From Hesseltinella vesiculosa (taxonomy: Eukaryota > Mucoromycota > Mucoromycetes > Mucorales > Cunninghamellaceae), in NCBI GenBank assembly GCA_002104935.1, contig MCGT01000009.1, positions 372,001-436,000 on the forward strand: a stretch of DNA of 64,000 nt, in the 5' to 3' direction. Each line of letters starts with the position of its first letter. The stretch's first letter is position 1. This document shows positions 56,970-62,875 of this stretch, piece after piece. The notes beneath the pieces are model-generated. The model did not search any database. It saw nothing but the letters and a program-made list of their open reading frames with translations, and had not been told where the DNA came from. The position numbers were made by a program, and so were the translations under genes.

Positions 56970-57185
56970 GCAAGCCCCATCCTACGATCTTTATTTGTAC
57001 CATTTGCCGCGATAATGATAAAAAGAGTGTGTTCCAGCTTTTTAGCAGGGTTGCACAACATGGCTCATCGTCCCTTTCCCTCGGTAGATCGCACCTTGGC
57101 AAATTCTGCTGTTAAAAACCCGTCGGTGTTCCTTTTTTTTTTTCGTCTCCTTTTTCCCACCCATTTTCTCGCCACAAACCTTCGG

Positions 57186-57749
57186 ATGAGCATACGCTTG
57201 ATCAAAACAGCGATTGAAGCGGCGGCAGGGGCGACTTTCGACTTGAAGGATTTTACAAAGGTATCGGTGGGCCAGTGCAAGGAGATCATGGACCGCTATG
57301 TCGACCTGACGATGAATGAAATTCACTGCCGAGACCACTTGGAAAACGGCGCTCGGGTCCTGCACGACATGCAGCTGTTGCTGAGCAAGAAAGACAAATT
57401 GGACTACCTGGAGCTCAACCGTTTGATCCAGGGCGCCGGTCAGCTCGAGTACATATGTGGTCTGGTAAAGAATGCGAAAAAGCAAGCCATGGACGGCTAT
57501 CTGCGCTACCAGCGCGAACAGATGGCCTATATGACAGCCGACGTGCCTCCTTTCCAGCATTTCCCTGCGCCGCCTCTGTCCGACGACTATCTTTCCAGCC
57601 ATCCTGACTCGTCCTCCACTTCAGAGCCCTATTCACCTTATTTACAGTCTTTCCACTTTCAATGCCGCATGTTGCAGAATAAATATGACGTTTGGGAAAA
57701 CGAATGCCATGGGGTGAGGATAGAAAGACAACGGAAACATAGCAAATAA
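57186..57749 (+). CDS. Helical protein of unknown function
   Basis: Single exon, 187 residues from the ATG at 57186. In-frame ATGs at 57015 and 57060 exist, but the DNA before 57186 is a C/T-rich leader-like tract (57126-57180), so the later start is preferred. The protein is almost all helix: MSIRLIKTAIEAAAGATFD, VSVGQCKEIMDRYVDLTMNE, ARVLHDMQLLLSKKDKLDYL and GAGQLEYICGLVKNAKKQA. A Tyr/Pro/Ser-rich tail includes SEPYSPYLQSF. I recognise no family. It lies 178 bp upstream of the Fanzor-like gene on the same strand; no functional link can be shown. Confidence 0.5.
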   Translation: MSIRLIKTAIEAAAGATFDLKDFTKVSVGQCKEIMDRYVDLTMNEIHCRDHLENGARVLHDMQLLLSKKDKLDYLELNRLIQGAGQLEYICGLVKNAKKQAMDGYLRYQREQMAYMTADVPPFQHFPAPPLSDDYLSSHPDSSSTSEPYSPYLQSFHFQCRMLQNKYDVWENECHGVRIERQRKHSK

Positions 57750-57927
57750 GCTTTTCCATCATACCCCTTCCTGTTGGCCTTTGATTCCTTGGTGTTCTTA
57801 CCAGAGGGTCCTGTGCTCAAGCCCTCTTTTTTTTTTTTTTTTTCCTGGCGATTCAAACTCATCTCTTCGTCCTTTTTCTTTTCCCAGTTTTTCGCGTCTT
57901 TTTTTTTCACTTTATACCTTTGTTCCA

Positions 57928-60900
57928 ATGGGTAAGCGTCGTGCTCAGCAATTGTCAGATCGACCGTCAACAAAACCCCTGCTAAGCATCAGCGATGAAA
58001 TGGAGGCCAAGGAGGCCCTCATTCTCGAAATCCGTCGGCACATCAAGGCGAAACTGTTGACTTCCAAGGACCATGGCAAGACCAAGACCGAGCTGGACAA
58101 TGTTCTACGGCTACCAAAAGGTCTACTGAAGAATATTGATGATGCCTGCCACTGGAAGCCGGGTTTCTTTACCGCAAAATACAACAAGAAGTTCGCGTTC
58201 ATGGCAGTGTGGAAAAGCACGCTGAATGAGTCATTTGCATCTTTGTCCTCTGAAACATTGGCCGAAGTCATGGCTACCTCATCAACAGACCAACCGTCGT
58301 CCTCCTCTGCTGCGTTGCCCTTGTCCATCGATCCATCCTCTTCCTCAACTCCACCTGTCACCAAGTTAAAAGAAGAGATCCGTGGCGTTCACAAGGGCCT
58401 GACATCCATCCTGGCAAGCCATTTCAAATCTGACACAGGCCAATCACTGAAAAATGAGGTCTTTGGACTATTCAAGACAGCGATGAGTGAAGCGACCAAT
58501 TACTGTCAAGAAATGACATTTTTACTGCAAGCAACCATGTTAAAATTTGCAACGACACCGAGCCCTGATTGGTACAATGGTATGATGGATATCAGGCCAC
58601 TTTTCAAAAAAACCAGCTGATCGACTCACCTTATTTTTTTTGGTCAGGTGAACTGAAATACTTGTCTGCGTCCGACCTTGTCCCTGTCGCCGCCCTTCGC
58701 CACTCAGATGAACTGAGTCGAGAAATGACGTTTTTTGCGCTTCCGCCCCCTACTCGTGCGTTGGCGGATGATTTATTCTCCATTGGCCACATACAATACC
58801 TCTTCTCATCAACCTTCGGCAAGACCCAGGCGTCCACAAAAACTAACCGCCCAGTGTGGTCCTATCTTGATGTGGATGTCGCAACTCGTCGTCCTGACCT
58901 TGGCATCATGACCAGTGAACTGCGATCCATCTACAACAATAAGATGGAAACCAACGTTCAAAACCTCCTTTCTGGGAAATCATTCAAAACCATGCTGCGA
59001 TATCTGCTGCGCCTGCTCCTGCGACTTTGGCTTGCCCCCCAGCGAGAAAAACGCCACCATGACGCCAAAGCAAACGCGGCGGCCGCCAAGGCTGCGAAAA
59101 CCAAGGTAGGGGTACACCTCACCTGGCTGTCCATCAAGTAAAGAGTGCTTTTCCTAATTTTTTTATAGGAGGTCGAAGTAAACGAGGTGCGTCAACTGAA
59201 GAAACAATGGTCACATGTACGTACAGCATTGAGGCGCCAGGAATGGCAATTGGCCAAGGACAAGACCAAGGGCTCGTTCAACAACGTGAAACAGCAAGGA
59301 TATGATTCCCGGATCTCGCACTTGAAATCGGTTCTGGTGAGATGTCAAGCTGGCAATGATTGAATGTTGATCTTATGTGCTTTATTTTATGAATAGGAAT
59401 CATTGGATGCTAAACGACAAGCTGCCCGCAAAGCTGCCGAGGAAGAGAAGAAAAAGGTAACGGATCTCAGCGAAAATGAATCACATTGATTTCTCACTTT
59501 TTTCCCTTCGGTCTTTCTAGAAACAATTGAAACCGTTGTCTGCAGCGAAAGCAGCCTCATTGTCTGATGCTGGTGAAGAAGTATATATTTGGAGCATACA
59601 ATGGACGCTCAGGTTATTTCTCTGAAACTCACTCATTTTTTTTAGGACCAAGACAAAGAGGATTTAGCTGCCATGGACGATTTGGATAGCACGGGATATG
59701 ATCTTGACAATTTGCCCTCCGGTGGGAATGCCCATGATCTATCCGCACGCCGGCTTGGCACCATACAGGGTGTTTTGTCTCGATTGCTCTGGGATGAGAG
59801 CCTTCCACCATTGTTGGATGCTACCATGGTACACGAGCAATCGAAAAAGCTCGACCCCACTGGCCATGAGCTCGACGTGCTGAAGCGAATCTACCAGCAC
59901 CTGAAGTCGTACATGGTGTATGATGGGCCGAAGCATCCCGGGCGCCTCAAATACCGCAAAATCAATCTTATCATGCTCGGCAACCAAGTCCTTCGTGTTT
60001 GCGGGTACCACACATTTTGTCAGCAGTACTGCCCAGTTGTGTCGGCCGGTTCGCTATACACCCTTTCCATGAATGCTCCATCCCTGTACGAATTACTCCA
60101 CAAGAGGGTCGATATGCGCTCGAACGGCGTAACATGCATCCGGACAGCACGGCAAAACAAGCACAATGTCTTCTCCACTATTTTCGACATGGATGAAGTC
60201 ACAAAGGCTTGCACGAAGAATGGAACTGAGTTCATCTACCGAATCGACGTGACGCCTGCCTTCGATACGCTGCTCTTTGGTTGTACGATCAAGCCACGTC
60301 AGCAATCGATGTATGAAAAGCGGCTCAAGGCCCCCACTGCCGATGTCGATGCTACTTCCGCGACAACCGATAACGTCCTTGCTCATGACCTCGACACCAT
60401 TGGCGAAGCCATCTCACTTGCCGAAAAAGAACGAGACCGCGTCACCAGTGCCAAGCGAGACATGACGAAGCAGCTGCGCAGCACTCGCTGTGCATTGAAG
60501 ACAACAGCCACCGTCAACCATCCATCAACCTCCAACACAAGCAAAATCAAAGGTGCTCAAAAAGAATAGGGAATGATTCAGGGAAACAGCCATATCATTT
60601 ATATTTATTTCTTTTGGTAGGCAAGACAGAACCCTCCAAGTTTGCGATGGTTCAAGAAGAACGGCGGCTAAAAGCAGCAGCACAGAAGGCTACACGTGAC
60701 GTGCATGCAGCCCAAGATAGTCTTGCCAATTTACGACGCACACGGTATCACTTACAGGAGGTATGTCCAGATGAACTTAGAAAGGAGCAGGAAGGTGCTC
60801 ACGTTCCGATTTTTTTTCCTGCAGGCAACTGACACCAAGAAGCCCAAAAAAACCAAGCCCTCGCCACCCATTCCTCCAACCAAGATTAACAAGACCACTC

Positions 60901-61793
60901 GTGTAGAGGAGGACCCTCGCCATACGCAGCTTGACCTTGATCTCAAGGAATGTATCCTATCTGGTACCGACTATGGTATTGTGACAATGGCCACAACGGT
61001 GACGCACACTCTCGAGGAGTTGGAGAAATTGAAGGCTGGCCAATTCTTCAAGTTACCAAAACCAACAAAGTTGGTTGCAAAGGATATTGCGTGGAAGACT
61101 GGGCAGTTCCAGCTGCAACGACGATTACAACGTGCAAAGGAAAAAGTAAGAAATAAGCAACTCCTAGCCACATTGAGCTTATCTAACTCTTTAATTTTTT
61201 TGAAGACAGGCGCTGGTCAAGAAGTATCTCAAGCTGAAGCCATCCTTGCGCACAATTCCCTGGCCTCAGCCATGACTGTCCAGCAACTGAACGATCGCTT
61301 TGCCCAAACACGCTCTAAAGTAGCAAAACTCCGTGAATTTTACCACCATCCGCAAATCGAGCGTCGACGTCGACACTTACAATGGCGACAATGGCTGGTG
61401 AAGACGAAAATCCCAGTGGATGCCAAGCGAAAGCATGACAAGACCCTCATCCAAGCCATTGGGCATGCGGGCACTGGGGTTGGTTCAAGAGTGGGCGGTC
61501 ATTTTCGACTAGGTGGCAAATGGCACCGACACATATCACGACAACATACCATCGTCCTTGTCACCAATGAAGCCCGTACGTCGATGACATGCCCTTTCTG
61601 CCGCCACCGCATCATTCACCCCCGCAAAACTGTTAATGGCAGGTCGAAACTGAACCTGGGTACCTCTTGCTGCACCAACCCCTCCTGTGAAGCTTACCAG
61701 CAACAAAAAAACTGCTTTGGTCGAGACTCCCTCTCGTGTACGTGCATTGCTTTGCGGTGCTATGGACAGCTGACCAATTGTGAAATCTTATGA
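57928..61793 (+). CDS. Fanzor-like RNA-guided nuclease (TnpB relative)
   Basis: Nine exons (57928-58579, 58648-59105, 59169-59336, 59397-59456, 59521-59580, 59646-60552, 60621-60760, 60825-61145, 61206-61793) join in phase, with canonical borders, to 1117 residues. The C-terminal part carries a split RuvC nuclease and zinc ribbon. RuvC-I is ILSGTDYGIVTMATT (Asp864). HTIVLVTNEARTSMTCPFC has Glu1044 and a Cys pair, CCTNPSC a second Cys pair, and CFGRDSLSCTCIAL the final Asp1096. The order D, E in NEARTS, zinc ribbon and D matches Fanzor/TnpB proteins. The roughly 860 residues before RuvC-I are unusually long. They include Lys/Glu-rich helices (330-430), the YLLRLLLRLWL stretch and a folded region with NGVTCIRTARQ and EFIYRIDVTP. 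No terminal inverted repeats were found. A derived, non-cleaving relative is possible; coding integrity suggests selection. Confidence 0.74.
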
Positions 61794-61821
61794 GCGACTT
61801 TGAAATCTTACCAACGACTTT
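61782..61821 (+). repeat. 20-bp imperfect tandem duplication at Fanzor gene end
   Basis: GAAATCTTATGAGCGACTTT is followed at once by GAAATCTTACCAACGACTTT. The first copy overlaps the last codons and stop of the Fanzor-like gene. In Fanzor loci the guide RNA is often transcribed from this end, so the repeat is noted, but it could be simple slippage. Confidence 0.7.
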
Positions 61822-61832
61822 GTACAATGCAC

Positions 61833-61849
61833 CACGCTCTGTGAGTGTG
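61833..61849 (+). other. Small hairpin downstream of Fanzor gene
   Basis: CACGCTC, loop TGT, GAGTGTG can form a 7-bp stem (one G-U pair) 40 bp past the Fanzor stop. It could be part of a structured guide-RNA scaffold. Stems of this size also arise by chance, so this is weak evidence alone. Confidence 0.35.
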
Positions 61850-62088
61850 AGGCGGCGGCTCTGTCATCAAGACATGAAAACTAGGTAAAGACTTCATAAA
61901 CACATAACTCAGCATCTTCTCATTTTTTTTCTTGTTCACCCTTGTTATCCCTTCCATTTCTCGTATCCATGGTAAGTCCATTTGGTTTCTCTGATTCGCC
62001 CATTCATACTGAACTCACCCAACTTTATTCCATTTTTGTTAGTTTGTTCTGCGACATCTTTCCTTTTGAATTGCGACATTTTTACTTC

Positions 62089-62094
62089 AATAAA
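62089..62094 (+). promoter_or_regulatory. Possible polyadenylation signal of Fanzor-like gene
   Basis: First AATAAA after the Fanzor stop, about 300 bp downstream. If used, the 3' UTR would include the 20-bp repeat and hairpin. Confidence 0.35.
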
Positions 62095-62875
62095 GTGTAT
62101 ACCAGCACGACCCACTTCCACACTCCCCTATCCTTACCAACGGTGACAAGGTCATGAAACCCGACGAAGTCACGTAGCCTTCCGCAAGTGGACGAATAAA
62201 ATTTGATCCGCACCGGTGGAGATTGAATTTGTTCTCTCACTTCCCTGAGACATGGTGTTTCCAAAAGGATTGACACCCACGCAAAATCTCAGGTCCACTG
62301 TTCCATTTTTTTTTTTTTTGCATCGCCCCGTACAGTAAAACCAGACGAATGGATCTGCTGAGATTTTTTTTATTGGGCCGCGGCCTATTATTTAGGAGGA
62401 CAACCCAGATTGCTGGGATTACTGACACAGCATGCGCTGGGTTTTGGGCGGTGGCACGATGAATAATCCAACTTCACAATCCTCATATCAAAAAAAGGAA
62501 CACCAAGGTAGCAGCAAAGAGAGAAAGAGAGACGAGAGGCTTGGCCATCGTTTGCTTTTTTGTCTTGCCATCAGCCACCAGCCATGGGGTGTGTTTCCAG
62601 ATGGATTGGCTTGCTCGCGAGCTTCTTCCTTCTTGGCCAGGGTCGATGCTTTCGAGTCGATCTACCATTGACAGAGCTCTGGGACAAGGGCTATCCTTTT
62701 TCTGCAGCGCAGTTTGGATGGCCGGCAAAGATTTGATGCAAAGATCAACTTGTCAAATTTATTACGTCAAAAAAATGACAAATCCCAAAAATGGTATAAA
62801 TATCGCCAGGTGTTCCTTGATCTAGATTTTCTTCATCTTCAAAAATCATCTACAAACCAAACATCTACACAAACA
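62095..62875. other. Intergenic region
   Basis: About 0.8 kb without a convincing gene. It has a T run at 62307-62320. A TATAAATA at 62798-62805, about 75 bp before the next ATG, is a good TATA box candidate for the Old Yellow Enzyme gene. Confidence 0.45.

Follow-up and report, generated by a model that had tools for sequence, protein, structure and literature searches.

A nine-exon Fanzor1-type gene as the likely cargo of a young mariner-like transposon in Hesseltinella vesiculosa, with a candidate guide-RNA scaffold past its stop codon

A nine-exon gene of the fungus Hesseltinella vesiculosa raises the question whether a eukaryotic RNA-guided nuclease has been adopted by its host or travels with a mobile element. 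The gene lies at positions 57928-61793 of a stretch of 64,000 nucleotides (nt) of contig MCGT01000009.1 (GenBank assembly GCA_002104935.1, positions 372,001 to 436,000 of the forward strand), hereafter the window. A previous reading of the sequence alone had described it as an intact Fanzor-like gene that was possibly host-adapted, overlooking that the gene has further copies in the genome and sits inside a transposon with ends at ~57640 and ~62100. In our assessment, the locus is likely a Tc1/mariner-like transposon that is non-autonomous and carries, as a passenger, the gene of a divergent RNA-guided nuclease of the Fanzor1 type.

An independent rebuild reproduced the gene as first proposed: 3354 nt encode 1117 residues plus the stop codon without internal stops, all eight introns are of the GT-AG type and 60-68 nt long, and the motif residues recur at D864 (GTDYG), E1044 (NEARTS) and D1096 (GRD), with C1051, C1054, C1078 and C1083 as Cys4 zinc ligands. 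The sole doubtful intron is intron 8, which requires an AAG acceptor and whose retention would add no stop; as nothing is inserted at this junction in either predicted homologue (P0001, P0002), the spliced form is preferred. That the nine-exon frame is not due to chance is indicated by its being open in two of the five other full-length copies and by L064, an 82%-identical copy, which can be aligned to all nine window exons. The protein is indeed longer than typical Fanzor1 proteins, for which 600-700 residues are usual (PMC11423790; the other Fanzor literature drawn on here is PMC10711439, PMC10432273 and PMC3627910). Extra N-terminal domains, also suggested by the sequence-only reading, found mixed support: exon 1 is kept across the subfamilies of the family, but the whole 1117-residue protein matches no Pfam family above the cut-off. 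Eight further places match exon 1 over its first 64 residues only, at 77-82% identity and with three TAG codons each, and are probably short, internally deleted derivatives.

The relation to Fanzors was missed by single-sequence searches of the window protein against Pfam and the PDB. A profile of six sequences recovered it, with the Spizellomyces Fanzor SpuFz1 as best match (E 2.4e-4; next match, E 0.66); further sequence-profile tests came out weaker or negative. The RuvC part was modelled at low confidence, with 20 residues of intron 8 still included; the model showed a RuvC/RNase H fold, and four SpuFz1 entries ranked first in the structure comparison. Computationally, the modelled RuvC part is Fanzor/Cas12-like, and profile, fold and motif order agree with the original assignment. 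Full-length folding of the homologue P0001 reached a predicted local distance difference test (pLDDT) of 57 and a predicted template modelling score (pTM) of 0.25.

The Fanzor1 motif D-X(125,275)-[TS][TS]-X-X-C4 zinc finger-X(5,50)-RD (Bao and Jurka 2013) is represented in the window protein by D864, 182 residues, T1047-S1048, the four zinc cysteines and R1095-D1096. Ealt of Fanzors, a glutamate six residues ahead of the zinc finger (Yoon 2023), corresponds to E1044, with six residues between it and C1051, and a glutamate stands here in all six rows of alignment A8. DPG at RuvC-I is given as occurring ‘near exclusively’ in Fanzors (Yoon 2023), but all of the same six rows read DYG; L052 has DSG and L019 DCG. 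On these alignments, the DYG family falls outside the published DPG-plus-Ealt Fanzor fingerprint, which is new here. The Pfam model Cas12f1-like_TNB (OrfB zinc ribbon) did not list the window protein at E values up to 10 and was found in one of four members of alignment A2 (E 0.016). Protein searches returned relatives only from Hesseltinella and Halteromyces and one partial Mycoemilia protein; because some 8,000 candidates at most were scored per search, less common relatives may have escaped detection.

Like a Fanzor1, the gene is transposon-encoded, as judged by the shared sharp ends of its copies. It is the cargo of a ~4.46-kb Tc1/mariner-like element whose copies are 99% identical and differ in their flanks: the copy alignment ends sharply at window positions 57640/57641 and 62100, with unrelated sequence outside. 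Exon 9 is identical at five genome places and near-identical on contigs C7 and C34. Pairwise substitutions among the six full-length copies (window, L059, L060, L062, L063 and L065) amount to 0.16-0.65%, and the frame is intact in the first three and broken by small indels in the other three. A seventh copy, on C50, is interrupted by the contig end, and an eighth, on C18, has an identical exon 1 and a left end differing at its first three bases. Since near-identical copies with sharp ends lie in unrelated flanks, the element is, by sequence, young and recently mobile. No second copy of the family was found in the window (exons 1, 6 and 9 each match its contig once), and the right-end motif has a single occurrence.

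With a slash marking the border, the left ends read TTTA/CAGTCTTTCC (6/6) and the right ends of the young family AAAGTG/TA (7/7), which places the terminal TA of Tc1/mariner elements at both borders (TTTA/CAG and GTG/TA) of all six full copies; the base before TTTA is A in five of them. The whole right-end word is present at seven genome places. An AGTGTA[T/C] end follows within 500 nt of the stop at 26 of the 29 places that have sequence beyond the stop; L031 (one base off), L034 and L036 deviate, as does C15 (one base off). Removing the element and one TA restores an open frame from 57186 to 62177, which is consistent with TA duplication but no proof of it, because an alternative placement of the boundaries likewise takes out a multiple of three. 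The frame holding the 5′ part of the interrupted host frame has no Pfam match at E 0.001. Many relatives of the family lie near contig ends; a subtelomeric family was considered and rejected, as seven of nine contig ends examined break inside the repeats (judged by eye), and the five telomere words looked for formed no runs in the family loci examined.

Downstream of the gene, two hairpins ending in GAAAAC begin 26 nt and end 88 nt past the stop codon. Compared with L064 they are 93.4% identical over 61821-61881, above every exon (73-88%) and intron (55-90%). The post-stop stretch of seven diverged loci (window, L015, L017, L018, L019, L022 and L029) aligns in the same way, with GAAAAC, or GACAAC in L029, behind the two hairpins. 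With a structure drawn manually on the basis of the seven sequences and of the folds predicted for them, 95.1% of the cells (12 pairs × 7 sequences) pair, compared with a shuffle mean of 84.7% and none of 500 shuffles as high; slid structures reached at most 57%, and both sides changed in five pairs, a count that was reached in 13 of the 500 shuffles too. An 11-sequence set, which includes the close pairs L022/L035 and L029/L036 and was aligned to the covariance model, hence biased towards it, showed 92.1% pairing (shuffle mean 82.7%, 0/500 as high) and both-side changes in 6 of 12 pairs (10/500 as high).

The covariance model itself returned 40 strong matches (E 1.5e-11 or better), one per source in 40 of 50 sources, many of which are overlapping or near-identical copies. 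Among them are L034, L036 and L054, which lay outside model building, L036 being close to L029. A strong match was absent in L033, cut by a contig end, and in L052; 13 extra matches near E 0.9 were chance-like. The eight canonical Fanzor loci of the genome (L001-L008) gave no match to the model, nor did an Rfam search of 57000-62500 return any. At one pairing position all 11 sequences have G-U, which suits RNA better than DNA. Comparative computation thus shows a covarying structured RNA just past the stop codon, new here, which is probably the omega-RNA scaffold of the window nuclease and is put forward as a candidate.

Under the transposon-cargo reading, transcripts would extend across the hairpins and beyond the right end into the flank, the nuclease would bind the hairpins, and the flank sequence would act as guide. 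The complex would then cut DNA with TTTA followed by the flank sequence, i.e. the empty allele or the excised donor site, and repair from an element-bearing copy would put the element back, which would thus be retained though a mariner transposase from another locus mobilises it in trans. TTTA, which adjoins all six left ends compared and has no mirror-image preference at the right end, fits a candidate target-adjacent motif like the CATA of SpuFz1, but six copies from a single young family make a small sample.

About 215 nt separate GAAAAC from the element end, a layout that is also new here. Solved Fanzor complexes are described with the scaffold joined straight to the guide, and the last 54 nt of the element are also conserved (85.2% to L064); both would favour a Fanzor-type nuclease that has its true scaffold in the final 50-60 nt of the right end, with the hairpins as a messenger-processing or stability signal. 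We hold this to be rather unlikely, as the hairpins are best conserved against L064 and covary across the 11 sequences, and as SpuFz1 and PpFz1 are described with two stem-loops ahead of the guide. The GCGACAT repeats in the last 54 nt look like transposase sites.

The gap also contains splice-like signals. GTAA sits 3-9 bases past GAAAAC/GACAAC in six of the seven diverged loci, L019 being without it, and GTAAG plus TAG at a spacing of 64-71 nt, as in the window, also occurs in L015, L018 and L019. Before the terminal AAG, a trinucleotide that intron 8 likewise requires as acceptor, L022 is AG-free for 155 nt (p 0.001) and L029 for 97 nt (p 0.03); in L037 and L026, of the same subfamily as L022, p is 0.001 and 0.0015 (all p values from mononucleotide shuffles only). 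The spliceosome might make the guide RNA by joining the GTAA donor of the scaffold to an AAG/TGTA acceptor exactly at the element border, so that the transposase-binding right end is removed and the scaffold comes to lie directly before the flank guide; we regard this as doubtful. This would explain why the hairpins are set back from the element end; the idea is weak in the window's own clade, because the AG-free run there has p 0.13-0.57 (window 0.27). Among the open-licence papers listed on Fanzor and introns or splicing (20 of 36 and 5 of 6), no title or abstract opening was on a spliced guide RNA. The set-back scaffold and its splice-like signals raise the question whether intron splicing is able to mature a guide RNA.

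As to what mobilises the element, the genome contains a mariner with an end starting CACTCTTTCC (at least 50 end matches), one inspected copy of which codes for a DDE_3 transposase. The left end of the Fanzor element agrees with this terminal inverted repeat (TIR) at nine of its first ten bases, and both carry a subterminal TGTCGCA-like word; agreement at the right end is poor. The sister subfamily of protein P0004 has, immediately upstream of the Fanzor 5′ leader, an HTH_32 module as in mariner-type transposases; it is there at all 12 full-length leaders and is stop-free over the matched stretch in 10. On sequence, this arrangement is a chimera in which the DNA-binding part of a transposase is combined with a Fanzor; no adjoining module was listed for two other leader matches, a partial one on C30 and one of 78% on C29. 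A 465-residue open frame at C2:722841 carries a 93% identical HTH. Taken together, left-end likeness, HTH modules and the C2:722841 frame make mobilisation in trans by a mariner transposase the best reading of these sequences, with more than one transposase candidate.

Two further connections were rejected. A right end common to the P0004-type Fanzors and the C2:722841 frame is absent there, the 25-base P0004-type end occurring at 20 places, none near that frame. A shared insertion target beside CACTCTTTCC fails because L063, L037 and L029, of three subfamilies, bear the mariner inserted at their right-end TA, and the CACTCTTTCC end recurs in clusters elsewhere in the genome. DDE_3 mariner ends are tightly clustered at C1:935501-937237 and on C4, C8, C23 and C34. 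At C29:159881-161215, leader, partial exon 1 and right end lie within 1.3 kb; this deletion derivative is perhaps a ‘ghost’ locus able to supply RNA in trans.

As no gene other than the nuclease gene was found in the window element, the protein could itself be the transposase, a RuvC-type strand-transfer enzyme, with the hairpin as a 3′-untranslated-region element or DNA hairpin. This is highly unlikely: profile and fold point to Fanzor/Cas12, which are known as RNA-guided nucleases and not as strand-transfer enzymes; the left end looks like that of a mariner, and the genome does encode mariner transposases; and the hairpins lie ~215 nt inside the end, with their invariant G-U pair.

Comparison of the window gene with L064, over matched parts of five exons, gave a nonsynonymous divergence (dN) of 0.092 and a synonymous divergence (dS) of 0.488 (ratio 0.19); six loci at a greater distance show saturation at synonymous sites and a dN of 0.42-0.59. 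Computation thus shows the protein to be under purifying selection relative to an older copy, and such selection between older copies fits a still-mobile element just as well. A host-domesticated Fanzor gene retained for a cellular function, which the intact nine-exon frame and this selection would favour, is barely credible given at least seven near-identical, sharply bounded copies at unrelated sites, only 0.16-0.65% apart and with three of six full copies broken. The immobile, single or fixed locus of a domesticated gene was not found, and the element interrupts another open frame; as it is young and recently mobile, the suggested host adaptation loses its support.

Table 1. Features of the element and its surroundings (window positions) and related places elsewhere in the genome (contigs, loci).
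Feature	Position	Strand	Basis or remark
Host open frame, 5′ part	57186..57644	+	rejoins 62100-62177 if element and one TA are omitted
TTTA at left end: mariner TA and candidate target-adjacent motif	57641..57644	+	6/6 left ends
Transposon, CAGTCTTTCC...AAAGTG, TA-flanked (mariner-type reading)	57645..62097	+	ends common to 6 full-length copies
Left end with subterminal ATGCCGCA	57645..57669	+	first 10 bases match local mariner TIR CACTCTTTCC at 9/10
Exon 1 (residues 1-217)	57928..58579	+	rebuilt gene; matches other subfamilies
Exon 2	58648..59105	+	rebuilt gene
Exon 3	59169..59336	+	rebuilt gene
Exon 4	59397..59456	+	rebuilt gene
Exon 5	59521..59580	+	rebuilt gene
Exon 6	59646..60552	+	rebuilt gene; 50 genome matches
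Exon 7	60621..60760	+	rebuilt gene
Exon 8, RuvC-I (GTDYG, D864)	60825..61145	+	rebuilt gene; DYG in 6/6 rows of alignment A8
Exon 9, RuvC-II (E1044), Cys4 zinc ribbon, RuvC-III (D1096), stop	61206..61793	+	rebuilt gene, profile, fold
Two-hairpin RNA ending GAAAAC, candidate omega-RNA scaffold	61819..61881	+	conservation, covariation, covariance model
Splice-donor-like GTAAAG directly past hairpins	61885..61890	+	GTAA in 6/7 diverged loci
71-nt intron-like stretch GTAAGT...TTTTTGTTAG	61972..62042	+	86.2% identical to L064 over 61966-62045
Right end TGCGACAT...AAAGTG	62072..62097	+	AG at 62094-62095, possible 3′ splice site at border
Host open frame, 3′ part	62100..62177	+	same frame as 57186-57644
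Exon-1-only places	C12 (two), C26, C13, C35, C3, C62, C51		first-64-residue matches
HTH-plus-leader places	C34, C66, C26, C6, C5 (two), C1, C59, C52, C50, C21, C18; L035, L037		P0004-type Fanzor genes

The DYG family extends beyond this genome. P0001 of Halteromyces radiatus matches residues 500-1117 of the window query at 45% identity, and P0007 of Mycoemilia scoparia, a partial protein whose record is without the last exon, is 43% identical to P0001; both are deposited as uncharacterised or hypothetical proteins. In the open-licence literature, nothing was found on Fanzor together with Mucoromycota or Hesseltinella, and one paper on Fanzor together with Mucorales. The Fanzor survey of Yoon et al. 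is described as starting from the Pfam zinc-ribbon model; surveys that start there or rely on DPG may miss the DYG clade, and eukaryotic RNA-guided nucleases could therefore be undercounted.

Among known systems, SpuFz1 of Spizellomyces punctatus (PDB 8gkh) shares with the window protein the RuvC core, the glutamate six residues before the first zinc cysteine and a C-x2-C...C-x4-C ribbon followed by RD, as well as, in published descriptions, a two-stem scaffold and its carriage as transposon cargo. It differs in being a single open frame with residues to 627 in the structures, as against 1117 residues in nine exons, and in a CATA motif and a scaffold described as adjoining the guide, where we find candidate TTTA and the ~215-nt gap. 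PpFz1 of Parasitella parasitica, also of the Mucorales, is described with a ~100-residue insertion in RuvC (PMC11423790), whereas most of the extra length of the window protein, compared by description, lies upstream of RuvC-I. Tc1/mariner elements with Fanzor1 alone, PUl-4 being one (Bao and Jurka 2013), are likewise described with a lone Fanzor gene, mariner-like ends and TA, but with TIRs identical to those of confirmed mariners, whereas the likeness in the window element is confined to the 10 outermost bases of the left end (9/10). The canonical Fanzors of the same genome (L001-L008) have the same motif order around the zinc ribbon, but carry DPG at RuvC-I, match the Pfam zinc ribbon and lack a detectable two-hairpin RNA; in five of them (L003-L006 and L008) the open frame has, between RuvC-I and the zinc ribbon, a few hundred residues of repetitive sequence. 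The window nuclease is long, encoded by many exons and recently mobile, and it occurs in one genome with these canonical Fanzors, so that it offers a natural test of how such nucleases keep transposons alive.
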